From NCBI GenBank assembly GCA_963681505.1, contig OY811971.1, positions 2,903,730 through 2,967,729 of the forward strand: 64,000 nt of DNA, in the 5' to 3' direction. Both the position numbers and the translations under genes were made by a program. The notes beneath the pieces are model-generated. The model was not told the DNA's origin, did no database searches, and worked only from the letters and a program-made list of their open reading frames with translations. Shown here one piece after another: positions 5,099 to 56,888 of this stretch (the first letter of the stretch is position 1; each line of letters starts with the position of its first letter). The DNA is from Eunapius fragilis. Lineage: Eukaryota > Porifera > Demospongiae > Spongillida > Spongillidae.

Positions 5099-5236
5099 GT
5101 TAATTTATTACCGAATGGAAGCTAGCCCCACATTCCTCAGCCCCACATTCCTTGCGGTTTAACACTTGCATACTGAACATCGGCGCGCGCGGTCTAAGCT
5201 ATATAGCTATATGTAGCGAACAAGGGAGATTCTAAC

Positions 5237-5407
5237 ATGGCTTCGGTACTTACTGCCAGCGATTTGAGTGCAAAGAAGGTTACGTTTGCGCAGCAGCTGA
5301 ATACGTCCTTTCAAAGAACAAGCTATAACGAGAAATCGAAGCGGCACCGATGTGGCGCGCCAATACCAGTGACTCGCAGAGATAGTGTAAGCACTCCAGA
5401 GTTATAG
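5237..5407 (+). CDS. Short ORF at left end of the foldback element, unknown
   Basis: A 56-codon frame that starts MASVLTASDLSAKK and ends in the first satellite monomer. The start has a good eukaryotic context (AACATGG). It lies between the terminal repeat and the satellite arm, where a promoter and first exon of an element transcript could be. I recognise no domain. It could equally be chance. Confidence 0.3.
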   Translation: MASVLTASDLSAKKVTFAQQLNTSFQRTSYNEKSKRHRCGAPIPVTRRDSVSTPEL

Positions 5408-8400
5408 CCTCACATTGCTATGCATGTTGTCTGCCAATACAGGCATATAGATGAGAGCTTACAATAAATGGAACATAGATGGCGAATATCTTCATCCAGG
5501 AAGGGGTGTGGTCAAACTCAGTGATCCACAGAGACAGAGTGAGCGCTCCAGAGTACTGCTGGTATATAGCCTCACATTTCTATGCATGTTGTCTGCCAAT
5601 ACAGGCATACAGATGAGAGCTTACAATACATGGAACCAAGATGGCCGAATATCTTCATCCAGGAAGGGGTGTGGTCAAACACAGTGATCCACTAAGACAG
5701 TGTGAGCACTCCAGAGTACTGCTGGTGTGTAGCCTCACATTGCTATGCATGTTGTCTGCCAATACAGGCATGTACAAGTGAGCCTTCATTTCATGGAGCC
5801 AAGATGGCTGAATATCTTCATCCAGGAAGGGGTGTGGTCAAACCCAGCGATCCACTAAGACAGTGTGAGCACTCCAGAGTACTGCTGGTGTGTAGCCTCA
5901 CATTGCTATGCATGTTGTCTGCCAATATAGGCATGTACAAGTGAGCCTTCATTTCATGGAGCCAAGATGGCCGAATATCTTAATCCAGGAAGGGGTGTGG
6001 TCAAACCCAGTGATCCACTAAGACAGTGTGAGCACTCCAGAGTACTGCTGGTGTATAGCCTCACATTGCTATGCATGTTGTCTGCCAATACAGGCATGTA
6101 CAAGTGAGCCTTCATTTCATGGAGCCAAGATGGCCGAATATCTTCATCCAGGAAGGGGTGTGGTCAAACCCAGTGATCCACAGAGATAGTGTGAGTACTC
6201 CAGAGTACTGCTGGTGTATAGCCTCACATTGCTATGCATGTTGTCTGCCAATACAGGCATGTACAAGTGAGTCTTCATTTCATGGATCCAAGATGGCCGA
6301 ATATCTTCATCCAGGAAGGGGTGTGGTCAAACCCAGTGATCCACTAAGACAGTGTGAGCACTCCAGAGTACTGCTGGTGTATAGCCTCACATTGCTATGC
6401 ATGTTGTCTGCCAATACAGGCATGTACAAGTGAGCCTTCATTTCATGGAGCCAAGATGGCCGAATATCTTCATCCAGGAAGGGGTGTGGTCAAACCCAGT
6501 GATCCACAGAGATAGTGTGAGTACTCCAGAGTACTGCTGGTGTATAGCCTCACATTGCTATGCATGTTGTCTGTCAATACAGGCATGTACAAGTGAGCCT
6601 TCATTTCATGGAGCCAAGATGGCCGAATATCTTCATCCAGGAAGGGGTGTGGTCAAACCCAGTGATCCACTAAGACAGTGTGAGCACTCCAGAGTACTGC
6701 TGGTGTATAGCCTCACATTGCTATGCATGTTGTCTGCCAATATAGGCATGTACAAGTGAGCCTTCATTTCATGGAGCCAAGATGGCCGAATATCTTAATC
6801 CAGGAAGGGGTGTGGTCATACCCAGTGATCCACTAAGACAGTGTGAGCACTCCAGAGTACTGCTGGTGTATAGCCTCACATTGCTATGCATGTTGTCTGC
6901 CAATACAGGCATGTACAAGTGAGCCTTCATTTCATGGAGCCAAGATGGCCGAATATCTTCATCCAGGAAGGGGTGTGGTCAAACCCAGTGATCCACAGAG
7001 ATAGTGTGAGTACTCCAGAGTACTGCTGGTGTATAGCCTCACATTGCTATGCATTTTGTCTGTCAATACAGGCATGTACAAGTGAGCCTTCATTTCATGG
7101 AGCCAAGATGGCCGAATATCTTCATCCAGGAAGGGGTGTGGTCAAACCCAGTGATCCACTAAGACAGTGTGAGCACTCCAGAGTACTGCTGGTGTATAGC
7201 CTCACATTGCTATGCATGCTGTCTGCCAATATAGGCATGTACAAGTGAGCCTTCATTTCATGGAGCCAAGATGGCCGAATATCTTAATCCAGGAAGGGGT
7301 GTGGTCAAACCCAGTGATCCACAGAGACAGAGTGAGCACTCCAGAGTACTGCTGGTGTATAGCCTCACATTGCTATGCATGTTGTCTGTCAATACAGGCA
7401 TGTACAAGTGAGCCTTCATTTCATGGAGCCAAGATGGCTGAATATCTTCATCCAGGAAGGGGTGTGGTCAAACCCAGTGATCCACTAAGACAGTGTGAGC
7501 ACTCCAGAGTACTGCTGGTGTATAGCCTCACATTGCTATGCATGTTGTCTGCCAATACAGGCATGTACAAGTGAGCCTTCATTTCATGGAGCCAAGATGG
7601 CCGAATATCTTCATCCAGGAAGGGGTGTGGTCAAACCCAGTGATCCACAGAGATAGTGTGAGTACTCCAGAGTACTGCTGGTGTATAGCCTCACATTGCT
7701 ATGCATTTTGTCTGTCAATACAGGCATGTACAAGTGAGCCTTCATTTCATGGAGCCAAGATGGCCGAATATCTTCATCCAGGAAGGGGTGTGGTCAAACC
7801 CAGTGATCCACTAAGACAGTGTGAGCACTCCAGAGTACTGCTGGTGTATAGCCTCACATTGCTATGCATGCTGTCTGCCAATATAGGCATGTACAAGTGA
7901 GCCTTCATTTCATGGAGCCAAGATGGCCGAATATCTTAATCCAGGAAGGGGTGTGGTCAAACCCAGTGATCCACAGAGACAGAGTGAGCACTCCAGAGTA
8001 CTGCTGGTGTATAGCCTCACATTGCTATGCATGTTGTCTGTCAATACAGGCATGTACAAGTGAGCCTTCATTTCATGGAGCCAAGATGGCTGAATATCTT
8101 CATCCAGGAAGGGGTGTGGTCAAACCCAGCGATCCACTAAGACAGTGTGAGCACTCCAGAGTACTGCTGGTGTGTAGCCTCACATTGCTATGCATGTTGT
8201 CTGCCAATACAGGCATGTACAAGTGAGCCTTCATTTCATGGAGCCAAGATGGCCGAATATCGTCATCCAGGAAGGGGTGTGGTCAAACCCTGTGATCCAC
8301 TAAGACAGTGTGAGCACTCCAGAGTACTGCTGGTGTATAGCCTCACATTGCTATGCATGTTGTCTGCCAATACAGGCATGTACAAGTGAGCCTTCATTTC

Positions 8401-9868
8401 ATGGAGCCAAGATGGCCGAATATCTTCATCCAGGAAGGGGTGTGGTCAAACCCAGTGATCCACTAAGACAGTGTGAGCACTCCAGAGTACTGCTGGTGTA
8501 TAGCCTCACATTGCTATGCATGTAGTCTGCCAATATAGGCATGTACAAGTGAGCCTTCATTTCATGGAGCCAAGATGGCCGAATATCTTAATCCAGGAAG
8601 GGGTGTGGTCAAACCCAGTGATCCACTAAGACAGTGTGAGCACTCCAGAGTACTGCTGGTGTATAGCCTCACATTGCTATGCATGTTGTCTGCCAATACA
8701 GGCATGTACAAGTGAGCCTTCATTTCATGGAGCCAAGATGGCCGAATATCTTAATCCAGGAAGGGGTGTGGTCAAACCCAGTGATCCACAGAGACAGAGT
8801 GAGCACTCCAGAGTACTGCTGGTGTATAGCCTCACATTGCTATGCATGTTGTCTGTCAATACAGGCATGTACAAGTGAGCCTTCATTTCATGGAGCCAAG
8901 ATGGCTGAATATCTTCATCCAGGAAGGGGTGTGGTCAAACCCAGCGATCCACTAAGACAGTGTGAGCACTCCAGAGTACTGCTGGTGTGTAGCCTCACAT
9001 TGCTATGCATGTTGTCTGCCAATATAGGCATGTACAAGTGAGCCTTCATTTCATGGAGCCAAGATGGCCGAATATCTTAATCCAGGAAGGGGTGTGGTCA
9101 AACCCAGTGATCCACAGAGACAGAGTGAGCACTCCAGAGTACTGCTGGTGTATAGCCTCACATTGCTATGCATGTTGTCTGCCAATACAGGCATGTACAA
9201 GTGAGCCTTCATTTCATGGAGCCAAGATGGCCGAATATCTTCATCCAGGAAGGGGTGTGGTCAAACCCAGTGATCCACAGAGATAGTGTGAGTACTCCAG
9301 AGTACTGCTGGTGTATAGCCTCACATTGCTATGCATGTTGTCTGCCAATACAGGCATGTACAAGTGAGCCTTCATTTCATGGAGCCAAGATGGCCGAATA
9401 TCGTCATCCAGGAAGGGGTGTGGTCAAACCCTGTGATCCACTAAGACAGTGTGAGCACTCCAGAGTACTGCTGGTGTATAGCCTCACATTGCTATGCATG
9501 TTGTCTGCCAATACAGGCATGTACAAGTGAGCCTTCATTTCATGGAGCCAAGATGGCCGAATATCTTCATCCAGGAAGGGGTGTGGTCAAACTCAGTGAT
9601 CCACAGAGACAGAGTGAGCACTCCAGAGTACTGCTGGTCTATAGCCTCACATTGCTATGCATGTTGTCTGCCAATACAGGCATGTACAAGTGAGCCTTCA
9701 TTTCATGGAGCCAAGATGGCCAAATACCTTCATCCAGGAAGGGGTGTGGTCAAACCCAGTGATCCACAGAGACAGAGTGAGCACTCCAGAGTACTGCTGG
9801 TGTATAGCCTCACATTGCTATGCATGTTGTCTGCCAATACAGGCATGTACATAGGAGCCTTCATTTAA
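5375..9868 (+). repeat. 163-bp satellite, left arm (about 27 copies)
   Basis: Tandem monomers of 163 bp run from GTGAGCACTCCAGAGTACTG through CCAAGATGGCCGAATATC. Most copies carry the GTACAAGTGAGCCTTCATTT variant. The first two carry the AGATGAGAGCTTACAATA variant. A higher-order repeat of four monomers (652 bp) is seen: the rare GCATTTTGTC change occurs at 7051 and again at 7703. Open frames through this array are by-products of the repeat. Confidence 0.95.
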
Positions 9869-10355
9869 TGGATCCAAGATGGTCAATTATCTTATCTTCC
9901 ACATGACTGAGTAAATTAATATCTGTGTTCTACTGCCTCAGATTGACTTTTCTTTTCTCATGTCATATTTTTACATGGACTGCAAGATGTCAGTCAGACT
10001 TATTTGTTGATTACAGTGAATAGTTTCTTGTGACTTTCTTTTTTTTTTTAATGAGTACATGTGTGCTTTAAGCTTATGGATTGTGGGTGATAATCACTAA
10101 TATAGATGTTTTGATTTTTATTGCGGGTAGCTGGTGGGAGTGATTAGCTCTCCTGTGGTGTTTCCCGCAACCTGCTCTGCTAATACCGATCCGTGCAGCA
10201 CACCTTCCTCCATTGCAAGTGGTACAGTTACTTCTTTCTTCTTTGTTCTCTTGTTGGTTGCTTCGCTGTGGAGCCCAGTTATGGTATTTGCTTGTTTTTG
10301 GAATGACGAGTTTCAATTGAATGATGTAATCTATTTCGTGTGTGGTGTCCCTGGA
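9869..10355. other. Left core boundary of the foldback element
   Basis: Unique sequence between the left satellite arm and the first recognised exon. It has a T-rich run (10029-10050). An open frame extends upstream of the Met at 10356 and includes a hydrophobic stretch at about 10223-10290. I regard this as probable 5' untranslated or intron sequence, because nothing in it resembles a known domain. Confidence 0.4.
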
Positions 10356-10610
10356 ATGAAGCCAAAGCGCAAGCATTGTATTGATCACGAACGGCTCGTT
10401 GCTGTTTTGATGCAGAAAGGCATTCCGCTGCCAAATGCGTCACGATCTGCCCCAGATGGATACTGGTTTTTGGTTGCCCAAGCACTATCCGGCTTCAAGT
10501 ACCCCTCTTCAAAGTATACCTATGCAGTGTATAAGTATTGGTTGAGTAACAGGAATCGAATGCAAGCCATTGCACAGGAGGACGCAATAGATCACAAAAC
10601 ACATGCAGAG
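10356..10610 (+). CDS. Foldback-element gene, exon (N-terminal part)
   Basis: Encodes 85 residues starting MKPKRKHCIDHERLVAVL and containing YTYAVYKYWLSNRNRMQAI. It ends at a good donor (CAGAG then GTATAG at 10611). A short intron of 48 bp leads in the same phase to 10659. I do not recognise the domain. The basic start and aromatic-rich middle would fit a DNA-binding N-terminus, but that is inference. The start could also lie at 10134 in the same frame, which would add a hydrophobic segment. Confidence 0.5.
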
Positions 10611-10658
10611 GTATAGTTTCCTGCAATAGACATGGTACCTTATTGTAATCATGCATAG

Positions 10659-10715
10659 GCCACATGCACCACCACTGAAATGGTGAATAATGACAACTCA
10701 GAGTGCGATGATGAG
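10659..10715 (+). CDS. Foldback-element gene, 57-bp exon
   Basis: A phase-0 mini-exon of 19 codons, acidic at its end (NSECDDE). It is bounded by CATAG at 10654-10658 and GTATAT at 10716. The preceding intron (10611-10658) is 48 bp. The call rests only on the splice signals and the phase fit, as there is no domain evidence. Confidence 0.35.
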
Positions 10716-11967
10716 GTATATAAGGCTTTGCGCCGATTTTTTTTTAATCATGCTATTTTTTGAAGCCACTATATTGTCTATGCCATCAACCATATGATTC
10801 AGAAAGGTAGGGTTGTCGTATTATTTTTTGGTTCCTATATCATGCATCATTTATCGGAACCTACGCGAGTAGGTTCCATATAGGAATCCTGCAGTATCAT
10901 GAATGTCATTAAAAAAACGTCACTCGCGTCTAGCGGGACAGCCAAGAGTCGGGTCACTTCGCTTTTAGTGGCAATCGAGCAATATCAAAAAGGAGAACAG
11001 TTCTGCGTTATATCTGTGTCATAAGACGGTGTACTTTTAGAGAACAAAAATACTCGTCCCCATCGTCCGTACCCAGTCCCACCTAAAATTTCTCCTCCGT
11101 CGTCGTCTTCTTCTTCTTCTTCCTTCGGGATAGCATAACTCACGACAGGAACGTTTGTAAAGCACGCCATGTGTACCAATCGCTTCAGGATGTGTCCGCA
11201 TGTTATCTTCAGGTATCTGTTAGACGCCTAACCGATCGGGCAATTGGCTGAAGCTAGTAGTACCTTATTTGGTGTTGATCTACAAATAGCACATTACATC
11301 AGCTATCACAATGTTCATGACGCACCAGTATAATATAACCAGCGTTATCAAATTCGATGGTTTTACCATATAATCTCATGAGGACAATTCTGATTCCACT
11401 CGAGCATCTAAAAGTGGAAAGATCCAGATGCTGCCATGCAGATCTGCCAAACGTGCGTATGTCAAGCGCGGTACCGAAAGGAAGAACAAAACGACCACCC
11501 AAAGGTACGTTTATACGGCATCGATAAATGTTGGATCGATAAATTATAAGCATGCATATGGTATATCGCTAAAATGGAAGGAATAGTTTTGTTACAGCGG
11601 TAGAGATACTGCGTCTCTCCGTTTTACAGTAATATGCGCTGTTTGAAATGTGTGTATAACGCCAAAGTTGCTTACGTCAGTTTGGTCATGTATTGTGGTG
11701 CATGGTTTATCTGATTATAGCGTGAGATCAGTTTACTTAGAGTGCATTTATTCTTTGTATTATATGGCTTCGCTTTTAACCTTTATCAATCCTTTGCTCC
11801 TCAATGGAGATAGTCTGGGGACTAGTGTAATATTTGGTACACACCTCAACAGAATTGCAGATCCTAATATAAACCTGTCATGCTCGCGCAAGTTGACGTT
11901 TATGCTACCTTATTCTATGCGTTTCAAAAACTAAATACAATACCAAATGCACCAGAAAAATTTAGGA
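10716..11967. other. Core of foldback element without recognised exon
   Basis: No convincing exon is visible. The first Cys pair of the PHD-like finger encoded at 12261-12400 should be here if the gene is intact. Minus-strand frames at 10985-11179 and 11299-11553 show no recognisable domain. Confidence 0.45.
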
Positions 11968-12251
11968 AACAAGTAATAAAAACATTCTCTACACGAGAAG
12001 GTTGGTGGTATATAGGAATCAAAGGTGAGATGGTGTAAAAAGCAAGGGAACAAGGCTTCTGATTGAAAACGAAAAATGAAATAGACCTATATTAGCATGC
12101 ACATTAAAATATGACAACATGCTGCTAATATAGGTCTATTTCATTTTTCGTTTTCAATCAGAAGCCTTGTTCCCTTGCTTTTTACACCATCTCACCTTTG
12201 ATTCCTATATACCACCAACCTTCTCGTGTAGAGAATGTTTTTATTACTTGT
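11968..12251. repeat. Near-perfect inverted repeat, about 130-bp arms
   Basis: The left arm (about 11968-12096) and right arm (about 12123-12251) are reverse complements with hardly any mismatch, around a loop of roughly 26 nt. The right arm ends just before the acceptor of the PHD-like exon at 12261. RNA from either strand would form a long hairpin. The near-identity implies a recent origin, or an assembly artefact. Confidence 0.88.
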
Positions 12252-12260
12252 TGTCATTAG

Positions 12261-12400
12261 GTTTATGATAGGCTGTGACTATTGTGCTGAATGGTACCAT
12301 GGCAGTTGTGTGGGTGTTACACCTGAAGAGGCGAAGATTGATGCTTACAGATGTCCAAAATGTGTATCACAGTCCATTGATTCACCATTGTATACAGATG
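12261..12400 (+). CDS. Foldback-element gene, PHD-finger-like exon
   Basis: The peptide [20 protein letters not shown] and the following YRCPKC match the second half of a PHD finger: CxxC, then W-Y-H-G-x-C-V-G-V, then CPxC. PHD fingers usually read histone H3 tails, and they occur in some transposases. The first Cys pair would have to come from an upstream exon that I cannot locate. The exon is bounded by CATTAG at 12255-12260 and GTTAGT at 12401, and ends in phase 1. Confidence 0.68.
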
Positions 12401-12462
12401 GTTAGTGATAAGAATACTTGCCCTTGAAATGTATATTGTGAACCTTATATATGTAAATAAAG

Positions 12463-12512
12463 GAATAACTGAATCCCATTCTGTAAGAGATGGAAGCATG
12501 CACAATCAAGAG
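12463..12512 (+). CDS. Foldback-element gene, 50-bp exon
   Basis: The acceptor is AAATAAAG (AG at 12461-12462) and the donor is GAG then GTAGAT at 12513. The 50 nt plus the single base left from the PHD exon give 17 whole codons. This restores phase 0 for the next exon at 12573. The flanking introns are 62 bp (12401-12462) and 60 bp (12513-12572). The call rests on phase and splice signals. Confidence 0.45.
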
Positions 12513-12572
12513 GTAGATTAAACACATGTTTTGTGCATCTTGTTCCCTGGCTGGTATTGTTTTTATTTATAG

Positions 12573-13568
12573 CTACCAGCATTGATAGAGGAGGGTGCAA
12601 TGTCAATTTTGCAATTACAGCCTACAATCACAGATCTGGAGTTGCCGCCATCAGGAGATTTTTCATTGAGCAGAGTTGTATGGGATGCGAACTTTGCAGG
12701 AGAAAAAGTATCCCCATCATGGGTACATCTTTGTGCTGCCGGGCTGTCAAAGCTCAATCAGTTCTGTTCCTTTGCCTTTAGGAGGCACTGGAAAAAGAAA
12801 ACCATTTCTCGTAAATCTTCAATATTTGTTTTCAAGGCTAGAGCCTACTGCACATTTTCAGGCTGCAATGTATCTGCAATGCCTTTAGTAAAATCCTGTG
12901 ATGTTGCTAGTGATGAAGTGACCATACATGTTGAATGTTCAGGACGTATATGCCACACAATTGGTGAAAAACATGCCCGTCGTTTTAGTCATTGCATTAG
13001 AAAAGACCTGTAAAAAAGTTTCCAAGATACTCATATTGCTCCATCAAAAGAATATCTCAATAGATTACTTAAACTGACTGATGAACAGTTTGCTGCTGGA
13101 AATAGAGATGCTGTAGGTGCTACTACTTCAGTTTTGAAGAAGATATCTTCAGAAGCAAGATTGGTGCAACAAGAGCATACCGACCTAGTTACATCTCTCA
13201 CTATCCTTAGGAAAAAACTAATAGACCGTCAAGACAAGGCACAAGTCTTAAACAAAAAGATTACTCCTATTCAAGGATTCATACAGTGCATCCAAGCTCA
13301 CCCATTTTCTGTGATATGCTTTAATGACACTAGTGTTCGACTGTACCATGAAATGGCTAAGTATAGCCCACTGTTTTGTGATGCAACTGGCACCATTGTG
13401 TCAGTACCAAAAATAGACGGTGTTAAAACAACAGTGTACTATTATTCAATTGAGATAAAACATCCTGTCGATGGAAAAGCTCCTATCCCAGTTGCAGAAC
13501 TAATCACAAATGACCATACGGTTCTTTCATTGTGCTACTTCATGGAGACCTTTCGTCGTGCAGGACTG
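12573..13568 (+). pseudogene. DDE (MULE-like) transposase segment, one stop codon
   Basis: A 332-codon stretch is open except for TAA at 13011-13013. The first part has Cys/His pairs around YCTFSGCNVS and HVECSGRICH, which may be a zinc-binding DNA-recognition domain. The second part includes YSPLFCDATGTIVSVP, where the Asp fits the first catalytic residue of a DDE domain, then YYYSIEIKHP and PVAELITNDHTVLS. It ends at CTG, followed by GTATTT and a possible 31-bp intron that restores the frame at 13600. MULE relationship is inferred from the D...D...CxxH order. It could be an unclassified superfamily. Confidence 0.62.
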
Positions 13569-13599
13569 GTATTTTAGTGCAATAACTAATCCATTGCAG

Positions 13600-13793
13600 T
13601 TCATAATAGACCGCAGCATGGTGTTGCTGCTTAGCATACTCCACGTATACAATTCAGAATCCTTGCAAGATTACCTTGAACGCACATTCAGAATCGTAAC
13701 AGGATCAGGAACTGTTAATGATTTCAGAAAGGTGTCACCACATGCATGTACCAGTCATGTAATGCACTCAGCTAGCAAGAACTGCAAAAAGTG
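13600..13793 (+). CDS. Foldback-element gene, exon with second catalytic Asp and CxxH
   Basis: Begins FIIDRSMVLLLSIL, where Asp fits the second catalytic position. Further on is HACTSHVMHSASKNCKKW, which contains the CxxH seen between the second Asp and Glu of MULE transposases. It ends at a donor (AAAAAGTG then GTAAGC, 13794). The acidic third residue and C-terminus are not found downstream. Removing the 31-bp segment 13569-13599 keeps the frame, but a plain +1 frameshift is an equal explanation. Confidence 0.55.
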
Positions 13794-14559
13794 GTAAGCA
13801 AAGCTTTTTTTCAAAATTAAATGATAGTACATCCTTTTGAAAGTTGCAACTTTATTAGTATATATTCCACCATAATGACATGCTTATGTAAGAGTGCACA
13901 GCACATCTACAAGTTTAGTGGATCTATATGCATAGCATCAATTAAATGTACTGTTGCTCATATTTTTCTCCTTCTTATGACATTTATTTGCACACGACCA
14001 TGAGAAGGAGGTTTATCTCTATATCATGATTTATACCATGCTGGGTATACGTAGATAGGAACATATAAGTAGTTCAGGTGTCTCAATACCTCCACACAGG
14101 TTTGGCCTGAGGTAAGAAATCAAGGTAACTCCCCACCAGTGAAAATAATCATACTGTCATCCAGATCATCACTACCCTCATAATGAAGAAATATGCAATA
14201 GATCATAAGCAAGCCGTTGGATATTATCTTCAACACACACTACCCATTTAATTGTATTTTTAATGGGACAAATACTGCCACTCTACTTTAAAAACAGTTG
14301 CTTCCGTTTTTTGCTTTAAAATATCTCATTCAGCTTTCTTTGTCACTGGTTTTGTACTTGCATAACAAATCACAAATGTTAATAAATTCATAAACAAAGA
14401 AATACAAAAAACAACTAAAATGTGTTCATTCCAACAATACATGAAAACAACATAGTAATAAACGAGGCAATACAAGACCTCATTGTAAGCGATTACCTCT
14501 TCCCCACACATATGTGCCATTCCTATGAAAGGCGAGGGCATGGCTGTAGTGGATAGTCA
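13794..14559. other. Right core of the foldback element, no gene seen
   Basis: AT-rich sequence with no recognisable exon. A possible acceptor (CACACAG at about 14100) is followed within 12 bases by another donor (GAG then GTAAGA), which I could not connect to coding sequence. Confidence 0.4.
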
Positions 14560-16720
14560 ACATGCATAGCAATGTGAGGATACACCAGCAGTACTCTGGA
14601 GTGCTCACACTGTCTCTGTGGACCGCTGGGTTTGACCACACCCCTTCCTGGATGAAGATATTCGGCCATCTTGGCTCCATGAAATGAAGGCTCACTTGTA
14701 CATGCCTATATTGGCAGACAACATGCATAGCATTGTGAGGCTATACACCAGCAGTACTCTGGAGTGCTCACTCTGTCTCTGTGGATCACTGGGTTTGACC
14801 ACACCCCTTCCTGGATGAAGATATTCGGCCATCTTGCCTCCATTTATTGTAAGCTCTCATCTATATGCCTGTATTGGCAGACAACATGCATAGCAATGTG
14901 AGGCTATACACTAGCAGTACTCTGGAGTGCTCACACTATCTCTGTGGATCACTGGGTTTGACCACACCCCTTCCTGGATGAAGATACTCGGCCATCTTGG
15001 CTCCATGAAATGAAGGCTCACTTGTACATGCCTGTATTGGCAGACAACATGCATAGCAATGTGAGGCTATACACCAGCAGTACTCTGGAGTGCTCACACT
15101 ATCTCTGTGGATCACTGGGTTTGACCACACCCCTTCCTGGATGAAGATATTCGGCCATCTTGCCTCCATTTATTGTAAGCTCTCATCTATATGCCTGTAT
15201 TGGCAGACAACATGCATAGCAATGTGAGGCTATACACCAGCAGTACTCTGGAGTGCTCACACTATCTCTGTAGATCACTGGGTTTGACCACACCCCTTCC
15301 TGGATGAAGATATTCGGCCATCTTGCCTCCATTTATTGTAAACTCTCATCTATATGCCTGTATTGGCAGACAACATGCATAGCAATGTGAGGCTATACAC
15401 TAGCAGTACTCTGGAGTGCTCACACTATCCTTGTGGATCACTGGGTTTGACCACACCCCTTCCTGGATGAAGATATTCGGCCATCTTGGCTCCATGAAAT
15501 GAAGGCTCACTTGTACATGCCTGTATTGGCAGACAACATGCATAGCAATGTGAGGCTATACACCAGCAGTACTCTGGAGTGCTCATACTATCTCTGTGGA
15601 TCACTGGGTTTGACCACACCCCTTCCTGGATGAAGATATTCGGCCATCTTGCCTCCATTTATTGTAAGCTCTCATCTATATGCCTGTATTGGCAGACAAC
15701 ATGCATAGCAATGTGAGGCTATACACCAGCAGTACTCTGGAGTGCTCACACTATCTCTGTGGATCACTGGGTTTGACCACACCTCTTCCTGGATGAAGAT
15801 ATTCGGCCATCTTGGCTCCATTTATTGTAAGCTCTCATCTATATGCCTGTATTGGCAGACAACATGCATAGCAATGTGAGGCTATACACCAGCAGTACTC
15901 TGGAGTGCTCACACTATCCTTGTGGATCACTGGGTTTGACCACACCCCTTCCTGGATGAAGATATTCGGCCATCTTGGCTCCATGAAATGAAGGCTCACT
16001 TGTACATGCCTGTATTGGCAGACAACATGCATAGCAATGTGAGGTTATACACCAGCAGTACTCTGGAGTGCTCACACTATCTCTGTGGATCACTGGGTTT
16101 GACCACACCCCTTCCTGGATGAAGATATTCGGCCATCTTGCCTCCATTTATTGTAAGCTCTCATCTATATGCCTGTATTGGCAGACAACATGCATAGCAA
16201 TGTGAGGCTATACACCAGCAGTACTCTGGAGTGCTCACACTATCTCTGTGGATCACTGGGTTTGACCACACCTCTTCCTGGATGAAGATATTCGGCCATC
16301 TTGGCTCCATTTATTGTAAGCTCTCATCTATATGCCTGTATTGGCAGACAACATGCATAGCAATGTGAGGCTATACACCAGCAGTACTCTGGAGTGCTCA
16401 CACTATCTCTGTGGATCACTGGGTTTGACCACACCCCTTCCTGGATGAAGATATTCGGCCATCTTGGCTCCATGAAATGAAGGCTCACTTGTATATGCCT
16501 GTATTGGCAGACAACATGCATAGCAATGTGAGGCTATACACTAGCAGTACTCTGGAGTGCTCACACTATCTCTGTGGATCACTCACTGGGTTTGACTACA
16601 CCCCTTCCTGGATGAAGATATTCGGCCGTCTTAGCTCCATTGGAGGCGCACGCTTCTATGGAGAAGATATGCATGCCTCTATTGGCTGACAAACGAGCAT
16701 ATACACCAGCAGTACTCTGG
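14560..16720 (-). repeat. 163-bp satellite, right arm in inverted orientation (about 13 copies)
   Basis: The same monomer as 5375-9868 but reverse-complemented. Here two monomer types alternate as one GAAATGAAGGCTCACTTGTA type followed by two TTATTGTAAGCTCTCATCTA types. This gives a 489-bp higher-order unit, with the first type at about 15003, 15491, 15982 and 16471. The last copies near 16560-16720 are decayed and include a small ACTC insertion. Confidence 0.94.
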
Positions 16721-16868
16721 AATGCTAACCGGTTTTGGTCAAACCCCTTCTTGGATGGGGGTGGTCAGAATCTTGTAGTTCTTCTAGTCCATGTAGATGT
16801 ACGTAGCTGCATTGGCATACAAGTGACCGATCCGATATACTCCAGTACTTGTAGGGTATACACTTGCA

Positions 16869-16889
16869 TATATATATATATATATATAC
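16869..16889. repeat. (AT)n microsatellite
   Basis: About ten AT dinucleotides within the right end of the foldback element, between the decayed satellite and the terminal inverted repeat. Confidence 0.85.
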
Positions 16890-17388
16890 GCTGTCTTTTA
16901 CTCAACTGTTCTGTTCCTTCAACGTTTCGATAAGTTATTTTATTTCTATTTACGAACCGGCCGCTCATTATCAAAATAACAATCTGACCGCAGGAATGTG
17001 AGGCGAATGTGAGGCTGAGGAATGTGGGGCTAACTTCTACGCGGTTAATCTCTTACCATTCTTCCGAACAGAAAATGATCCATGCAATAGAGCCTGCCTT
17101 AGTTTCATTCGTATATGCGCAATCGCGGATAGAGAGGTGCTGAAATCCGCTACTGCACCGATAAATAAGTCACTCACTGTACAGCAATCCCATAAGGATT
17201 CATGTGCTTGCAATACAAAAACTAAGTCATAACCCGTGGGGGGCTCAGCCTCCCCCATCCGACCTTGATACATGAGAGGAAAATTGCGCCCCCCCCCCTC
17301 CCCTCCTGTTGTTGGAGTCAGTGTCACATCAGCTCACAATTGCAACACATCTAATTTATCCAAAAATACAGGGATTGGAAATGCTTAC

Positions 17389-17725: not shown

Positions 17726-17985
17726 CAGGGAGGAGCCTGCCTCAGCACTGGGGACTTGGGATAGATGGAGGAGGCTGGTGCAGCTGAAAGCCCTCTAGCT
17801 GGAGGGTGGTGATGTGAGGGTTTAGTGATATGTGAGCAATTTGAGCTCAAGGATGGTGAGGGTGGTGATGATTTGAGGGTAGTGAAATTTTGTAGTGGTG
17901 AGGGTGTGAGGCTTGTGGTGATATGGGTAGTGATGTGAGAATGGTGAGGTAATGATTGGAACTGCCTCATCATCGCAGATGGACC
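17726..17985. other. Promoter-side flank of zinc-finger exon 1 (block 2 start)
   Basis: Corresponds to 62582-62845 and overlaps 1-114 in content. It includes CAGCACTGGGGACTTGGGAT at about 17743, the empty site of the CACTA-like insertion at 56953-62581. If exon 1 starts a transcript, the promoter should be here or in the adjacent minisatellite. No TATA-like element was recognised. Confidence 0.45.
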
Positions 17986-18495
17986 AAGATAGTGGAGGTG
18001 TTGTGAGCACCTGGTCTGGTGAGGACCAAGATGGTGGAGGTGTTATGAGCACCTGGTCTGGTGAGGACCAAGATGGTGAAGGTGTTGTGAGCACCTGGTC
18101 TGGTGAGGACCAAGATGGTGCAGGTGTTGTGGGCACCTGGTCTGGTGAGGACCAAGATGGTGGAGGTGTTGTGAGCACCTGGTCTGGTGAGGACCATGAC
18201 GGTGGAGGTGTAGTGATCACATGGTCTGGTGAGGACCAAGACAGTGCAGGTGTTGTGAGCACCTGGTCTGGTGAAGACCAAGACGGTGCAGGTGTTGTGA
18301 GCACCTGGTCTGGTGAGGACCAAGATGGTGGAGGTGTTGTGAGCATCTGGTGAGGACCAAGATGGTGAAGGTATTGTGAGCACATGGTCTGGTGAGGACC
18401 AAGATGTTGGAGGTGCTGTGAGCACCTGGTCTGGTGAGGACCAGGAGAGTGGAGGTGTTGTGAGTACCTGGTCTGGTGAGGACCAAAATGGTGAA
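17986..18495. repeat. 42-bp minisatellite, array 2 (about 12 copies)
   Basis: The same unit as array 1, with higher identity between copies. It lies directly beside the promoter side of the minus-strand exon at 17389-17725. Confidence 0.92.
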
Positions 18496-21564: not shown

Positions 21565-21852
21565 GGCACAGTGGATTGGGAGCAGTGCCCAGGCCACAGT
21601 GGATTGGGAGTAGTGCCCAGGCCACAGTGGATTGGGAGTAGTGCCCAGGCCACAGTAGATTGAGAGTGGTGCCCAGGCCACAGTGGATTGGGAGTAGTGC
21701 CCAGGCCACAGTGGATTGAGAGTGGTGCCCAGGCCACAGTGGATTGGGAGTAGTGCCCAGGCCACAGTGGATTGGGAGTAGTGCCCAGGCCACAGTGGAT
21801 TGGGAGTAGTGCCTATAGGCCACAGTGGATTGGGAGTAGTGCCCAGGCCACA
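21565..21852. repeat. 28-bp minisatellite, array 2 (about 10 copies)
   Basis: The same unit as 2811-2925, with a GAGAGTGGT variant in two copies and one copy stretched by TATA (about 21810). Confidence 0.92.
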
Positions 21853-24084: not shown

Positions 24085-25206
24085 AGAGTTAATTTGTTAA
24101 GGGGGTATTAATTTTATTAATTGGTCATTTGCCATGCTACCGTAGAGTTGGGTTCAATGCCGTCAACGGGCGATCTGCAAGATGCCGGGATTCCGACCAC
24201 AGTAGAGCACGGTGGTCAGGAACCACTGGAAGCCGAAGCAACCTGTTTGATGCTGACCGCCGTACCCCAGAGCCCTCAATGGAGGAGGGTTGAGAACAAG
24301 CAGGTGGGAGTGAGCATCGGGGAAAGCATGGCACCTGTTCCGAGGAAGATGGCAGAGAAGATCTGGAGGTAGGAGTATGTGGAGTTGAGGGACCTGCTTC
24401 CAGAGAACGGGATGTTCAGGGCGGAGGAAGGGTCGACCAATCCTCTAGGTGGAGTACGACGACGGCGGCAAATAACGGACGTGCACATGTGGGTCCAGTA
24501 TTTTGCGGTATACATTGGGGTAATGTCGCAAAAGTACCCGGAGGCCGTTCCTGAGCTATTCGCGTACATCATTCTCATTGTTCGTAGAAGCCGGGAGTTT
24601 GCTGAGCTGACCTGGGCGCGGTACGATTCAGAGTACCGTCGCCACGCTGCAAACTCTGGCAACATGCAGTGGTCCCGGATCAACCCTTCGATGTACGCAG
24701 TCCATTTCACCAGAAAAGCCCTAGCCGTCACGCCACGCTGTGAGCTGTGTGCCTCAGTTTTCCACACGTCAAAAGATTGCCCGTTCTCCACGAAAACAGA
24801 AATGGAAAAGACACTCGAGGCGGTGCTGTCGGCATGCACCCCAGCTAATCTTGGCTCTACCGATCGCGAGTGCAACGAAGTGTGCCGAAAATGGAATGAC
24901 AAGCGCTGCAACTACCAGTGGTGCCGCTACCGGCACGTTTGTTTGTCTTGTGGGGGAGCGCATCCGGTGAAGCACTGCCCATTGGATCAAAAAAGAGCAA
25001 ATTCGGGGCCAACCTCCCAGGGCCAACAAATACATTTTCATGTCGTTTGGCAATTAGACAGGAAATATGCTCCCGCCGTAATGCGAGCAAATGGAGTGTG
25101 GGAGTGGTGCCACGTGGTGGCAGGTTTAAAGGTCAGGAAAGGCGGGAAGATAGGCATTCTAGGCACTTGTGCATGCCACACTTACCTGCTTTTTTCCTGC
25201 GAATAA
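24085..25206 (+). pseudogene. Gag-like protein of DIRS element A
   Basis: The frame is continuous from about 24121 to a TAG at 24370, then from 24373 to 25206. The conserved part (24460-24960) has TDVHMWVQYFAVYIGVMSQ, a WARYDSEYRRHAA segment, then Cys/His clusters RCELC, HTSKDCP and CRYRHVCLSCGGAHPVKHC. This order is typical of Gag-like proteins encoded by DIRS-order elements, where the Cys-rich end probably binds nucleic acid. The internal stop and the loss of a link to RT (the second DIRS-like element follows) make it non-functional. Confidence 0.7.
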
Positions 25207-25208
25207 GA

Positions 25209-25930
25209 TGAGCGAAGTTCAAGGAAACAGTCAGCAGTCCTCTGGTGCGACGCAGAACGCAACGGATACTCTGGCCCTTGATCTGGCGGCGATCACGAGC
25301 TCCCAAACTGAGCTCCGGCAGATCCGTGAAGAAATGCGGCAGTCTCAGGAGGATACGGCCGTCAAGTTGGCCCAGATGAGGAAGGATCGGCCTTTCCAAT
25401 TCCAGAAGAAGGGCCACGAGGAGCAGTACCAATTCAACCAGAGCGTTGAGGGCAAGTTTGCCAAAGCGGAGGCTCAGCTGCAGAAGGCGGAGCGGCTGCT
25501 GGGTGATGGTCCGGCAAAAGCGGCAGTTGAAAAAGCAAAGACCGCGCTGAAGGAAGGTGAGGAGCTTGTCGCCCACACGCAAAAGCTGATCAAGGTCGCC
25601 GATCAATCAGAATTTGGCTGGGCGGTCGTCACGGAATACGAGGCTGACGTTCTCGCCATGGATGCGGACGATGAGCGGCGCCTTGAGAGAGCCGAAAAAG
25701 CCACGGAGTGGAAGATGGCGGCCAAGCGGAAAAAACTGGCGACAGGCTCACAGGCCAAGAAATTGGCATCGGGCCCGCCTGCTGGCGAACGTGACTTCAC
25801 TAAGCGTGTCAAGAAGAATGGGGTTTGTTTCGGCTATGGCGAGCCAGGTCATTTTAGAAAGGACATACCGGTAACATATCCTATGCTGCCCAATGATTCA
25901 TATGAGTGTGCTGTGCGGTGGAATAGGTAA
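25209..25930 (+). CDS. Gag-like protein of DIRS-like element B
   Basis: A 240-residue frame starting MSEVQGNSQQSSGATQNATD. It is rich in charged helices and likely coiled-coil (residues about 30-170: FQKKGHEEQYQFN, LLGDGPAKAAVEKAKTALKE). Near the C-terminus VCFGYGEPGHFRKDIP looks like a CCHC knuckle that has lost its second and fourth Cys. The order (helical Gag, knuckle, then RT) fits YR-retroelements of marine invertebrates. Base composition is GC-richer than the RT that follows, and the frame overlaps the RT frame slightly at 25893. Confidence 0.62.
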
Positions 25931-27447
25931 TGATGCTGTTGATGAGCACATGGGTAGGTGTTGGGAATCCTCACAAGGCGAGTGCATTCCAGTAAAGGGT
26001 GTTAAGGGGTGTTTGAGGGAACATGTTAGTTACTGGATTGAGGTGCTTAAGGCTCCCAAGTGGATCATTGATGTTATTAAGGAAGGTTATGTTCTACTCC
26101 TTTTCACTGAACCCACAGTATATAGGAAGGCTAACCAAAAATCAGCATTGAATAACATAGAATTTGTTGATAATGCAGTGTTAGATCTGGTGCAGGGTGG
26201 TTATGTAGAACCAGTGGTTAGTACCCCTCATGTTTGTAGTCCCCTGTCAGTGGTTGAGAACAGCAGTGGTAAAAAACGTCTTGTAATCAATCTGCGACAT
26301 GAGAATCGTTTTTTATGGAAGCAGAAGTTTAAGTATGAAGATTTGCGTGTTGCAATGATGCTCTTCAGATCAGGTGAGCTCATGTTTGCATTCGATTTGA
26401 AGTCTGGGTACCACCATGTGGAAATTGCACGCCATCATCAGAAATTTTTGGGTTTCAAATGGAAGGGGCAAAATTATGTGTTTGTTGTTTTACCATTTGG
26501 GTTGTTTGCAGCCCATACCTGTTTACTAAGTTAATGCGTCCATTTGTAAGATTTTGGAGGGCTAGAGAGGCCTTAAAGCCATTATGTACCTGGATGATGG
26601 GATATGTTCTGTGGAAGGTAAAAAGGAGGCAGACCTAGCCAGCCAATTTGTACAGGATACCTTGAATAAGGCAGGCGTGGTTGTTAATGACAAGAAGTCT
26701 AGTTGGAATCCATCACACTGCATGACGTGGTTAGGATTTGACGTAGACCTGTCACATGGCTGTATTTCAGTACCTGAGAAGAGGCTGTCTCAGTTGCATA
26801 AATTACTGAATGATAAGGGTACCGAGGAATACCTTGCAGCCAAGCAGATAGCTAGCCTTGTAGGGAAGATAATATCCATGTCAATGGCTCTGGGCCCAAT
26901 AGCTAGATTCATGACTAGAAGCTTGTATGCATTGCTTGAGAGTAGGGATACATGGTGTGACCTGCTAGAGGTAACTCCAGAAGCAAGGGTAGAAATGGAA
27001 TTTTGGAAGATATCATTATCCTTGTATAATGGTCAGCCTATTTGGTGCAAGCCTTCAGCAGTAGCAGTTGTGTACTCAGATGCAAGTGACATAGGATATG
27101 GAGGGTACATTGTATACCACGGTTACCATGTAGCGCATGGCAACTGGACTCATGAAGAGGCAGCCAAAAGCTCAACATGGCGAGAGCTGGTTGCTGTTGG
27201 TAGAGTGTTGGAAGCAATAGCTTTGCTTCTCAAAGGTTTGCATGTGCGTTGGTTTTCAGATAATCAGAATGTGGTGCGCATAATACAGCATGGTAGTCGA
27301 AAAGCACACTTACAGGTTGAAGCCATGAAAATATTGGAGATCTGTATAAAACATCAGATTCTTATTGAACCAGACTGGGTCCCTAGGGGGAGAACCAACT
27401 GGCAGACTACATTAGCAGAATATCAGATTATGATGATTGGCAGTTAG
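25893..27447 (+). pseudogene. Reverse transcriptase/RNase H of DIRS-like element B
   Basis: RT motifs appear in order: GYVEPVVSTPHVCSPLSVVE, KKRLVINLR, LMFAFDLKSGYHHVEI (catalytic Asp), VLPFGL, then a frameshift near 26515-26583, then MYLDDGI (YxDD). An RNase H region follows with VVYSDASDIGYGGYIV, STWRELVAV and WFSDNQNVVRII, which supply the usual Asp and Glu residues. The frame is lost again near 27440. RT would copy the element RNA, but the frameshifts argue that this copy is inactive. Confidence 0.82.
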
Positions 27448-27772
27448 ACCCATTTGTCTTTAACTGTTTGGATGGGTTATGGGGCCCACACTCGGTGGAT
27501 CGTTTTGCAAATGATTACAATGCTCAGATTGTACGGTTTAACTCAAGGTTTGCTAGTGTTGGGGCTGAAGCTATTGATGCATTTACAGTGCATTGGGGTG
27601 GGGGAGAAAACAATTGGTGGTGTCCTCCCCCCAGTTTGATCATAAGGGTCATTCGGCATGCGGAGGTATGCAAAGCAAAGGGTACCTTGGTTGTACCTTA
27701 CTGGGAATCTGCCCCATTTTGGTCTGTTCTGTGTCCTGATGGATCATGTTTTGCCCCATCGTGGTAGCAGTG
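27448..27772 (+). pseudogene. C-terminal extension of element B polyprotein
   Basis: The frame from 27468 encodes WGPHSVDRFA, FNSRFASVGAEAIDAFTVHW, ENNWWCPPPSLI and WESAPFWSV. This block regularly follows RNase H in DIRS-order polyproteins. It is out of frame with the preceding 27447 stop. Confidence 0.6.
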
Positions 27773-27904
27773 TGTGATCTGCCATTGTCCAAGCATGTTT
27801 CAACGTGGGAGGTCAGGTAGTGTGTTGTTCAATGGGCAGATGCCCAACACCCCTGTTTTGGCAATGAGAATAGAGTTTTAGTGGAGTGCCAGTGTTTGGC
27901 AGTG

Positions 27905-28110
27905 TGGCATGTTGGGCATGCCCTGTGCTGTTTGTTGATAAGCTGTGTTTTGTGCTACCTCAGCGGTAAGGAATTGTGGCAGTGGGCAATAAGGGTGTGA
28001 CTAGAGGGTCTGTGACATGCTGGGCATGCCCTGTGATGATTATTGATGAGCTGTGTGAGCTACCTCAGTGGTGAGGAATTGTGGCAGTGGCCAATAATGT
28101 TTGACCAGAG
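27905..28110. repeat. Two-copy tandem duplication (period about 110 bp)
   Basis: Segments beginning at about 27907 and about 28015 share CATGCTGGGCATGCCCTGTG-like starts, TACCTCAGYGGTRAGGAATT and GTGGCAGTGG. It lies between RT and recombinase of element B and looks non-coding. Confidence 0.75.
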
Positions 28111-28253
28111 GGTCAGACATGGACCAAGGAATGAGATGGTTATGTGGTATATACCATGCTCAGTTGGTCAGTACACGTGACTGGTATGTCACTTCTAGAC
28201 CCAGGAAAAGGCTAGGAGCCTTGGGATCTTGACTGGGGCTTAACCATTTTTGG

Positions 28254-29297
28254 TTGGGCCAGTGGGTCAGTAGTTACTACTGTTTTCCTTTTCTCTCTTT
28301 CAGATGTACTTGCAGCAGGTGTCTGGCCTCAACTGAAGGATCTTCAAGACCCAGAATTGCAGCGGCTAGCACAGCTCTTCCAGCTACTATCCTTCATAGC
28401 AGAGCAGACAGGACTGTGCAAAACTACCTAGGTGCTTTCGGACGATGGAAACGTTGGGCAGAGGCACACCAGGATGTGCCAAGTTTCCCAGTGCAGGACA
28501 TACATCTGGCTCTGTACCTGGGTGAGTCTGTTGAGTCAAAATCAGCCGTTGAGGAGGCTGTTTATGCCTTGGATTGGCTGCACGGAGTGGCAGGGTTGGG
28601 ACCACTGGGTTCCACCCCTATTGTGCAGGCCACGTTGGCAGGTCTTAGGCGTGCATTGGCACAACCTAAGGTCCGTAAGGAACCTGTCACGGCTGAGATG
28701 TTGCAAGCCATGGTGGCTTCTGTGGGTGTTGACCCATCCCTGTCCCAGATTAGGTTGCTGGCCATTTGCCTGGTGGCTTTTGCTGGCTTCTTGCGTTGTG
28801 ATGAGTTGCTTAAACTCAGGTGTTCAGATGTGTCATTCAGTGCTGAAAGCATGGTGCTCAAGATCAATTCTAGCAAAACTGACCAGTATAGGCAGGGGGA
28901 TAGTTTGCTGATTGCACGTACCGGTCAAAGTACATGTCCAGTGGCAATGATGGAGCGTTATTTTGTGATGGGTGGTGTTAGTAGTGGGTCCAGTGAGAAG
29001 TTGTTTAGAGGCATTGTGCACACTAAACAAGGGGAAAAGTTGAGAGCATCTGGAGGTATTAGCTATTCTCGACTCCGAGAGCTGTTGTTGGAAAAGATTG
29101 CTGAATTGAGTATGGACCCAAAGCTATTTGGAATGCCCAGCTTGCGTGCAGGCGGGGCCACAGCTGCAGCTAATGCTGGGGTCAATGATCGCATGTTCAA
29201 AAGGCATGGTAGATGGCGTTCTGAGTCAGCCAAAGATGGTTATGTGAAGGATTCTGTAGAGAAGCGTCTCTCAGTTTCAAAGCAGTTGGGTATTTAG
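28254..29297 (+). CDS. Tyrosine recombinase of DIRS-like element B
   Basis: An open frame of about 300 conserved residues starting near SRADRTVQNYLGAFGRWKRW (28395). It shows FAGFLRCDELLKLRCSD (first catalytic Arg), SLRAGGATAAANAG (second Arg), KRHGRWRSE and DGYVKDS (nucleophile Tyr). In the HxxR position the His is replaced (MPSLR), which would impair catalysis. The true start is uncertain: an acceptor-like TTTCAG at 28298-28303 opens another frame with DPELQRLAQL, which continues only through a frameshift near 28370. The enzyme would integrate the circular element without target duplication. It is the best-preserved long mobile-element frame in the window. Confidence 0.82.
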   Translation: MGQWVSSYYCFPFLSFRCTCSRCLASTEGSSRPRIAAASTALPATILHSRADRTVQNYLGAFGRWKRWAEAHQDVPSFPVQDIHLALYLGESVESKSAVEEAVYALDWLHGVAGLGPLGSTPIVQATLAGLRRALAQPKVRKEPVTAEMLQAMVASVGVDPSLSQIRLLAICLVAFAGFLRCDELLKLRCSDVSFSAESMVLKINSSKTDQYRQGDSLLIARTGQSTCPVAMMERYFVMGGVSSGSSEKLFRGIVHTKQGEKLRASGGISYSRLRELLLEKIAELSMDPKLFGMPSLRAGGATAAANAGVNDRMFKRHGRWRSESAKDGYVKDSVEKRLSVSKQLGI

Positions 29298-42847: not shown

Positions 42848-43274
42848 CTATATATTTATATGGATAAAATTCAGCCATTAATAACAAATTTACAAATTTA
42901 CAATGATTTTCAACAATGTCCTGATGTCATGAACATCATTTCAGTGGGATCAACGTTGAGCACGCCAAACTGAGGGGTAAATTTAATTTATACACATCAC
43001 CCCTCTGGATCAATGCCTACAGAGGTTCCCAAAGAATGAAGAATGAGCTGAATCTCATTAAACCTATCAACAACCAATTAATACAGTTCCAATATCTCAA
43101 ACCTGGTCACATTATAATGTTGTGATATTTATGATTATAAAAGTGGCTTTCCACCACAGAACATGTCACATAACATATTGCAAACTTCTATCCCTAAGGC
43201 TTCGAAAGCTGTCTCACTTGTTGCTCCATACTTCTCCCTCCACTAGTCTGGTGCCAAGACCCTCAGATATATCC
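42848..43274. other. Upstream flank of zinc-finger exon 3 (no gene)
   Basis: Aligns with 2091-2800 and 51028-51480, with deletions. Nothing coding is seen. Confidence 0.55.
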
Positions 43275-43762
43275 CACAGTGGATTGGGAGTAGTGCCCAG
43301 GCGACAGAGGATTGCGAGTAGTGCCCAGGCGACAGTGGATTGGGAGTAGTGCCCAGGCCACAGTGGATTGGGAGTAGTGCCCAGGCCACAGTGGATTGGG
43401 AATAGTGCCCAGGCCACAGTGGATTGGGAGTAGTGCCCAGGCCATAGTGGATTGGGAATAGTGCCCAGGCCACAGTGGATTGGGAGTAGTGCCCAGGCCA
43501 TAGTGGATTGGGAGTAGTGCCCAGGCCACAGTGGATTGGGAGTAGTGCCCAGGCCATAGTGGATTGGGAATAGTGCCCAGGCCACAGTGGATTGGGAATA
43601 GTGCCCAGGCCACAGTGGATTGGGAGTAGTGCCCAGGCCATAGTGGATTGGGAATAGTGCCCAGGCCACAGTGGATTGGGAGTAGTGCCCAGGCCACAGT
43701 GGATTGGGAATAGTGCCCAGGCCACAGTGGATTGGGAATAGTGCCCAGGCCACAGTGGATTC
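43275..43762. repeat. 28-bp minisatellite, array 3 (about 17 copies)
   Basis: The longest array of this unit. Two alternating variants (GGGAGTAGT and GGGAATAGT, CCACAG and CCATAG) form longer repeated groups, which suggests recent unequal exchange. Confidence 0.94.
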
Positions 43763-47194: not shown

Positions 47195-47644
47195 CTCGAA
47201 AAGTCATACGTACATTTCATATGATGGAATATGAAAGAGTTATTGAATGTTCTTTGGATAACAAATATGTTAGCAGTCGTCTCTTCTCCGCAAAGCTTCT
47301 TTTCAGGTGTACCGGTTACTATAGGTAATAATAACCGCACTTTGTGACTGCGTTTGTCGCAAAACTCCCAGCAGTACCGGCTGAATATCCGTTAACCCTC
47401 CAACAAAGTTCCTATTTTCAGAACAAACCATGATCCATGCAATAGAACCTGCCTTCGTTTCATTCGTATACGCGCAGTCGCGGATAGAGGTGCTGAAATC
47501 CGCTCCTGCACCGATAAATAAACCGCTCACTGTACTGCAATCTCGAAGATTGAACATGATATGGATTCGTATGCTTGCAATACATTTATTCATAACCCAT
47601 GGGGGGCTCATCCTCCCCTATCCGACCTTAACTATTTAAGAGGG

Positions 47645-51479: not shown

Positions 51480-51765
51480 GCCACAGTCGATTGGGAGTAG
51501 TGCCCAGGCCACAGTGGATTGGGAGTAGTGCCCAGGCCCATGTGGATTGGGAGTAGTGCCCAGGCCACAGTGGATTGGGAGTAGTGCCCAGGCCACAGTG
51601 GATTGGGAGTAGTGCCCAGGCCACAGTGGATTGAGAGTAGTGCCCAGGCCACAGTGGATTGGGAGTAGTGCCCAGGCCACAGTGGATTGGGAGTAGTGCC
51701 CAGGCCACAGTGGATTGGGAGTAGTGCCCAGGCCACAGTGGATTGGAAGTAGTGCCCAGGCTACA
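51480..51765. repeat. 28-bp minisatellite, array 4 (about 10 copies)
   Basis: The same unit as the other three arrays, with one CCCATGTGG variant at 51537. Confidence 0.93.
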
Positions 51766-56400: not shown

Positions 56401-56888
56401 TAATACGTGCATAAATGTAGGATCGATTCGCTCGCGTGTTTGTATCGATGTGTGGACTTCTTCCAGCAGCGAGATAATATATAGCTCAGGCCCTTCTGTG
56501 CAATAAAAATGAGGGGGGGTCGTCTCCGAAAAGCTTCTCAGTTTCTGATAATAACCGCACTTTGTAACGGCGTTTGTCGCAAAACTCCCGCGGTACCGGC
56601 TGAATACCCGTTAACCCTACAACACAGTCTTCCGAACAGACTATATGATCCATGCAATAGAACCTGCCTTAGTTTCATTCATATATGCGCAGTCGGGATA
56701 GAGAATCCGCTACTGCACCCGCGATAAATAAGTCACTCACTGTACAGCAATCTCGAAGAACATGATATGGATTCATGTGCTTGCAATATGACAACATGGT
56801 TAAATTTAGTCATAACCCATAGGGGGCTCAGTCTCCCCCATCCGACTTGATACACGTTGCCCCCCCCCCCCCCCCCCCCCCCCCCTCC

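Follow-up and report, generated by a model that had tools for sequence, protein, structure and literature searches.

Two satellite arrays that stand inverted on either side of a gene may be the arms of one mobile element or may have gathered there independently, and this is the question raised by a locus of the sponge Eunapius fragilis. The window, a stretch of 64,000 nucleotides analysed at its full length (contig OY811971.1, C1:2903730-2967729), carries two inverted arrays of a 163-bp satellite around a gene, predicted to be spliced, with a PHD finger and a transposase exon. From the comparison with other copies in the genome (219 Mb searched, 24 contigs), this locus is very probably a Rehavkus-like DNA transposon of the cut-and-paste type, present here as a defective copy. 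Rehavkus, rather than FB-NOF, is the closest known kind, the likeness being to its published description only.

A single insertion with a 9-bp target duplication

The insertion is one element of 11,936 bp, as defined by the termini aligned over 19 paired copies and by paralogous sites that are empty, with the following borders:

5110..17045, + strand: whole element, a defective copy (termini of the 19 paired copies and empty paralogous sites)
5101..5109, + strand: left target-site duplication, TAATTTATT (copy comparison)
17046..17054, + strand: right target-site duplication, TAATCTCTT, 7/9 identical to the left (copy comparison)
5110..5152, + strand: left terminal inverted repeat, containing the 15-bp doublet AGCCCCACATTCCTC x1.9 at 5124-5152
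17003..17045, - strand: right terminal inverted repeat (self-comparison and copy comparison)
47350..47460, + strand: paralogous empty site 1; the other two lie at about 54700-54820 and 56560-56680

The core of the terminal inverted repeat pairs 5118-5150 with 17005-17037 (33 bp, 94%), and the comparison of copies lengthens it to 5'-ACCG at both outer edges. In most copies the left end reads ACCGAATGGAAGCTAGCC and the right end ACCGCGTAGAAGTTAGCC; the 5'-ACCG is common to both, and the element is therefore placed at 5110-17045. A first-pass annotation, made from the letters of the window, had proposed a single 11.9-kb insertion with terminal inverted repeats and paralogous empty sites. Apart from corrected edges this was borne out, since the host flanks of the insertion match three sites of the window (about 47.4, 54.75 and 56.6 kb) that run through without the insert, with a few short indels nearby. 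The imperfect 14-bp duplication proposed at the same time was rejected in favour of 9 bp, since 9-mers are perfectly repeated in ten other copies and in nine copies of a sister family. The apparent 14 bp is explained by the terminal ACC (left) and GT (right), which together with chance-matching host letters adjoin the 9-mer.

Copies elsewhere in the genome

Searches with the two ends gave 44 left-end and 45 right-end matches; as the genome searches score the best candidates only, these and the other counts are lower bounds. Pairing by coordinates, with end matches lacking a partner excluded, led to 19 copies of 0.8-19 kb with both ends. The 9-bp duplication is perfect in ten (one of them in poly-C and weak), 8/9 in one and 7/9 in the window, the chance of a given 9-bp match being about 4e-6 if equal base frequencies are assumed. 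Among the pairs counted as having none are C2:13170005, the flanks of which agree in 5/9 by eye, C5:11382116 with a changed right terminus, and the C7 and C3:3663383 pairs with degraded left termini. Further copies with both ends and independent duplications, as the first reading of the locus had envisaged, thus exist.

Two copies are of particular use. One of 16,253 bp has AAATCATCT on both flanks and arms of 32.7 and 13.4 monomers, and another of 6,686 bp has TGAATTTTA on both flanks and a core of only about 0.5 kb, with 24.7 monomers in one arm and 9.5 in the other. As this near-coreless copy has a perfect duplication, arrays of thousands of bases moved as arms while a gene of their own was absent, which agrees with the earlier suggestion that satellite DNA is spread as transposon arms.

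The satellite arms

Tandem Repeats Finder (TRF) and self-comparison confirmed the arms as inverted arrays of the 163-bp satellite:

5403..9893, + strand: left arm, 163-bp satellite array (TRF 27.6 copies, 95% matches; blastn 27.7)
14558..16641, - strand: right arm, the same satellite in inverted orientation (TRF 12.8 copies, 93%; blastn 13.4 including a degenerate edge)

Inverted relative to each other, the arms agree over up to 2,004 nt at 93-94%. Satellite was present at 7/8 left-end and 26/30 right-end loci fetched, and a genome search with the monomer gave 550 matches (best 40 of 80 candidates scored); among the matches listed there are 11 places, each with an element end. Arm length varies between copies, the 27.7 + 13.4 monomers of the window standing beside 32.7 + 13.4 and 24.7 + 9.5 by the same measure. 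Left-arm monomers were closest to the left arms of other copies (26/26, 31/31 and 19/23, with four ties). Right-arm monomers were closest to right arms in 9/12 (two nearest to left arms, one tie) and 12/12, and in the 6.7-kb copy in 3/9 only (three left, three ties). Side-specific inheritance, as expected for arms inherited through transposition, is therefore clear for two copies only, those of the window and of 16 kb.

We also considered that each monomer carries the terminal 15-bp motif (AGCCTCACATTGCT compared to AGCCCCACATTCCT), but the match was not significant by shuffling and the idea was rejected. Shuffles as good as the observed match numbered 34/400 and 48/400 for the family of the window element, 366, 267 and 250 of 400 for three sister arrays and 312/400 for an unrelated array at 57 kb of the window.

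The core gene

Between the arms lies the gene, with the following parts:

10356..10610, + strand: N-terminal coding exon, predicted (start codon ATG at 10356; splice donor placed by eye; in part conserved with a sister family)
10751..10806, + strand: PHD finger, first half (5' edge of the exon not fixed)
12261..12400, + strand: PHD finger, second half (Pfam match of the joined exons)
12573..13797, + strand: transposase exon (D at 13380-13382, D at 13609-13611, CxxH as CTSH at 13747-13758)
14100..14110, no strand: internal deletion junction (about 4.9 kb of the 16-kb copy missing from the window copy)
10855..12247, no strand: secondary insertion of 1.39 kb, lying in the intron that separates the two PHD exons; a palindrome (11968-12252) is on its right side

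The PHD finger is complete over the two joined exons (PF00628, E = 3.7e-10, profile 1-47 of 47). The gene with PHD finger and D..D..CxxH segment described in the first-pass annotation was confirmed. In four copies read, the transposase exon is open for 410-427 codons with the motifs CDATG, IIDRS and CTSH, and both D as well as the C and H are invariant over five families. The exon of the window is damaged by an in-frame stop (13011-13013) and a frame break near 13565. The missing 4.9 kb corresponds to the candidate third catalytic residue and to exons for domains like a ubiquitin-specific protease (USP) and like Ulp1. The stop codon and the frame break, together with the loss of the gene's 3' part, make the window copy defective. 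The 1.39-kb secondary insertion is missing in four compared copies (L040, L041, L044 and L045), and its palindrome of 285 bp is near-perfect (96%).

In the 16-kb copy the gene continues past the transposase exon. A block T[SA]GTIEAWN[FY]ILKK, conserved in three families, contains a candidate third acidic residue (E), and is followed by a USP-like domain with Cys box NLCWLNSVLQ and His box HHG....GHC and by an Ulp1-like domain with the motifs HW, DSLH and Q..N..DCG. D..D..CxxH with a later E is the order of motifs in Mutator-like elements (MULEs). When conserved blocks were joined, UCH matched with E = 5.2e-18, 4.3e-12 and 7.9e-18 and Peptidase_C48 with E = 1.4e-9, 2.1e-11 and 5.1e-9 in three families, the exon borders being approximate as the blocks were chosen where the families are conserved and then cut to size by eye. 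Fuller copies are accordingly predicted to encode peptidase C19 (USP) and C48 (Ulp1) domains, both with a Pfam match over the catalytic domain. C48 gave no match in single exons among the part of the exons scored.

Sister families with other satellites

Protein searches of the genome led to 65 and 70 transposase exon matches, and 15 of the encoded proteins, when compared, fell into five families with 44-57% identity between families. Synonymous differences between families are saturated (four pairs, pS 0.77-0.80) and pN is 0.26-0.28, pointing to purifying selection on the transposase.

Two sister groups were opened, the C23 group (both ends seen; left arm) and the C3 element (right end; both arms). 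Their ends read ACCGCTTGGAAGTTAGCACCACATTCCTCAGCACCACATTCC or nearly so and are clearly akin to those of the window element. The arm satellites of 163 bp (C23 left), 173 bp (C3 left) and 153 bp (C3 right) are unlike each other and unlike the satellite of the window element, save for one 32-bp stretch. As the two arms of C3 carry different satellites, inverted arms are not required in the wider group. Perfect 9-bp duplications were found in 9/10 paired copies of the C23 group, and two of these nine copies (on C2 and C4) have no transposase exon among the matches. The C23-group satellite gave 352 matches (32/32 candidates scored) and, among the matches listed, 16/16 places adjoin an end of the group. 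For the 173-bp satellite (281 matches, 34/34 scored) 7/9 places among the matches listed lie upstream of a transposase exon of its own group, two C1 blocks being counted as one. The elements at C23:917217 and C3:2311829, of two sister families, have one end in common, identical over at least 124 bp but placed on different sides with respect to their genes; this arrangement suggests that families have exchanged ends.

Relation to known transposons

Rehavkus is a little-studied, MULE-related group of DNA transposons listed in Repbase. It is described as having a PHD finger in the transposase, a 9-bp duplication and a minisatellite before the 3' terminal inverted repeat, according to the accessible part of one account (PMC6446971), and the Tribolium castaneum element Rehavkus-1_TC as a 9.5-kb element with a 164-bp satellite in its inverted termini, according to that of another (PMC10218199); the hosts named in the accessible part of a 2019 survey are Arthropoda or Annelida. 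All three characters recur here: the PHD finger in the transposase (PF00628, E = 3.7e-10), the 9-bp duplication in the window family (10/19 perfect) and the C23 group (9/10), and satellite repeats at the termini of the window family and the opened sisters. Differences are the far longer arms of the window family (27.7 + 13.4 monomers, and 32.7 in another copy), the occurrence of families with unrelated satellites within one genome, and the USP-like and Ulp1-like domains, which the accessible parts of the Rehavkus descriptions do not mention.

Several observations weigh against this assignment. Seven of the 19 pairs and one of the ten C23-group pairs have no duplication, and that of the window itself is imperfect (7/9). 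Mobility is deduced here from genome sequence, and no transposition event was observed. A Pfam search of the 410-aa transposase exon gave no match, and a PDB profile search with the transposase found no relative. PF10551 matched at 45 places in the genome, none of which coincides with the transposase exon places found. When seven MULE proteins from this genome were compared by hhalign, on shallow alignments, the probability was 0.8% (E = 0.069), and the 41 columns aligned lie outside the catalytic motifs. The single C19 exons stay below Pfam cut-offs, with collinear UCH matches at profile 2-24, 137-179 and 216-243 (E = 0.18, 0.037 and 0.11). Within families, dN/dS was 0.06, 0.33, 0.58 and 1.9 on few changes, so recent constraint is not uniform, and the roles suggested for the PHD finger and the proteases are read from motifs.

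The kinship with MULEs, one of the possibilities named in the first-pass annotation, was thus not supported by Pfam, by the PF10551 places or by hhalign on the shallow alignments. The 9-bp duplication and the terminal inverted repeats are those of a canonical MULE, whereas the transposase lacks a PF10551 domain above the Pfam cut-off; it has D..D..CxxH and a candidate E, yet no MULE profile match. Because the plan fits Rehavkus and the tests for a canonical MULE were negative, we call the element Rehavkus-like and claim no formal membership. Canonical MULEs (PF10551) also occur in the host genome at the 45 places, six of the matches being in open frames of at least 800 codons. Among viral contigs, four pattern matches to possible relatives were found, none of them confirmed.

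These negative results could also mean that the element belongs to a new superfamily of DNA transposons, resembling Rehavkus in plan only (PHD finger, 9-bp duplication, satellite arms). The transposase without a match in Pfam, PDB or MULE profiles would fit, as would the two proteases missing from the accessible Rehavkus descriptions, but D..D..CxxH with a later E, the PHD finger, the 9-bp duplications and the satellite termini of about 164 bp all agree with what those descriptions and MULEs offer, and we consider a new superfamily unlikely.

FB-NOF of Drosophila melanogaster shares the foldback plan with arms of tandem repeats and differs by its short arm repeats and a different core. The first-pass annotation had named it as the match in outline; the foldback plan with tandem-repeat arms stands, and the nearest described kind is Rehavkus, FB-NOF being the weaker match. 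An origin of this type, with arms built from simple repeats and a core captured later, would account for the inverted tandem arrays around a core, the many non-autonomous copies and the variable arm length. However, the arm monomers measure about 163 bp, the core gene accompanies akin ends in sister families, and the arms of the C3 element are different satellites and no inverted copies of each other, which makes such an origin very improbable.

Independent arrays that came to flank a gene by chance and stepwise, for which the richness of the window in tandem arrays and gene clusters might speak, can be dismissed, as the paralogous sites are empty, the arm-core-arm unit recurs at many sites within shared ends and 9-bp duplications (including the 16-kb and 6.7-kb paired copies), and the satellite, among the matches listed, falls within element copies. 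The first-pass annotation would have given up its own reading for such a stepwise origin or for want of any other copy; instead 19 copies were found, and the near-coreless one holds both arrays.

Parts of the Rehavkus-like arrangement have precedents. Satellite-bearing foldbacks are already known from Tetris of Drosophila virilis, which, in the accessible part of its description, has terminal inverted repeats with internal 220-bp tandem repeats, duplications of 8-10 bp and a role as source of satellite arrays (PMC4079207). Tetris resembles the window family in the tandem repeats within the terminal inverted repeats, the duplication and the provision of satellite. It differs in that, by the same part, no transposase was found for Tetris, while the window family has one, and the Tetris repeats share a stretch with the Tetris terminus, while here the match between end motif and monomer is not significant. 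Satellite termini are likewise known from Rehavkus itself, and Ulp1, OTU, PHD and C19 domains have each been seen beside transposases. The accessible part of one account (PMC2836005) reports Ginger1 transposases with Ulp1 or OTU domains, one of them with Ulp1 and PHD, as well as Ulp1 in Mutator elements, mentions a Trichomonas protein with transposase and peptidase C19, and suggests for Ulp1 and OTU in other transposons a role in transposition or repair. The Ginger1 transposase is integrase-like, unlike that of the window family, and neither an element with PHD, C19 and C48 together nor one with satellite arms was found in that part of the account. The searches of open-licence full texts, which exclude Repbase reports, brought to light neither PHD, DDE, USP-like and Ulp1-like domains in one element nor several families of one genome that have similar ends and gene and carry unrelated satellites in their arms.

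Surroundings in the window

The window holds open reading frames (ORFs) with C2H2 zinc-finger arrays and minisatellites, and the flank of the insertion has several paralogous copies in it. Minisatellites of 42 bp (126-898, 17981-18493 and 62840-62955) and 28 bp (2803-2920, 21567-21852, 43274-43761 and 51480-51765) recur among the zinc-finger repeats, which suggests tandem duplication of whole units. Consecutive ORFs at 24373-29294 gave matches to reverse transcriptase, RNase H-like and, weakly, tyrosine-recombinase domains, all below Pfam cut-offs, an order resembling that of a DIRS-type retroelement. The ORF at 38759-39733 contains DUF4371 (E = 2.1e-15), a domain often present in hAT-like transposases.

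A second 163-bp array (57351-60796, 21 copies) is unrelated in sequence to the arms of the element. Searched for in the genome, it has 186 matches, which lie in short dispersed arrays and in part form inverted pairs (C1 near 13.85 Mb and 20.34/20.37 Mb); it may therefore belong, as an arm, to a further mobile element. That it is an arm of the kind found in the window element was rejected, since the two satellites are unrelated in sequence and the end motif does not recur elsewhere in the window.

A possible mode of satellite dispersal

In the mechanism that we propose, the transposase would bind the terminal doublet, excise the unit and reinsert it at cuts staggered by 9 bp. The satellite arms would be passengers inside the ends, growing and shrinking by whole monomers through unequal exchange, and copies losing their core would become satellite foldbacks mobilised in trans. 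The complex may be held on chromatin by the PHD finger, and removal of ubiquitin and SUMO during integration or repair may be the task of the two proteases.

Monomers measure 153-173 bp here and 164 bp in the beetle. It is conceivable, as a tentative idea to which we give rather less than even weight, that the element stands for a superfamily in which the arm is an exchangeable slot: ends and gene would be conserved, each family would hold its own unrelated satellite of near-nucleosome length, PHD finger, deubiquitinase and deSUMOylase would act on the chromatin of the arms, and the element would be dedicated to making and dispersing new satellite DNA.

The origin of dispersed satellite arrays is an open question, and each jump of such an element would bring ready-made satellite blocks to a new site. 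As whole arrays of tens of monomers lie between ends with 9-bp duplications, each copy can be counted as one step of their spread by transposition. Akin ends with unrelated satellites of similar length furthermore make it testable whether the arms are selected for their length, that is for chromatin, or merely accumulate.

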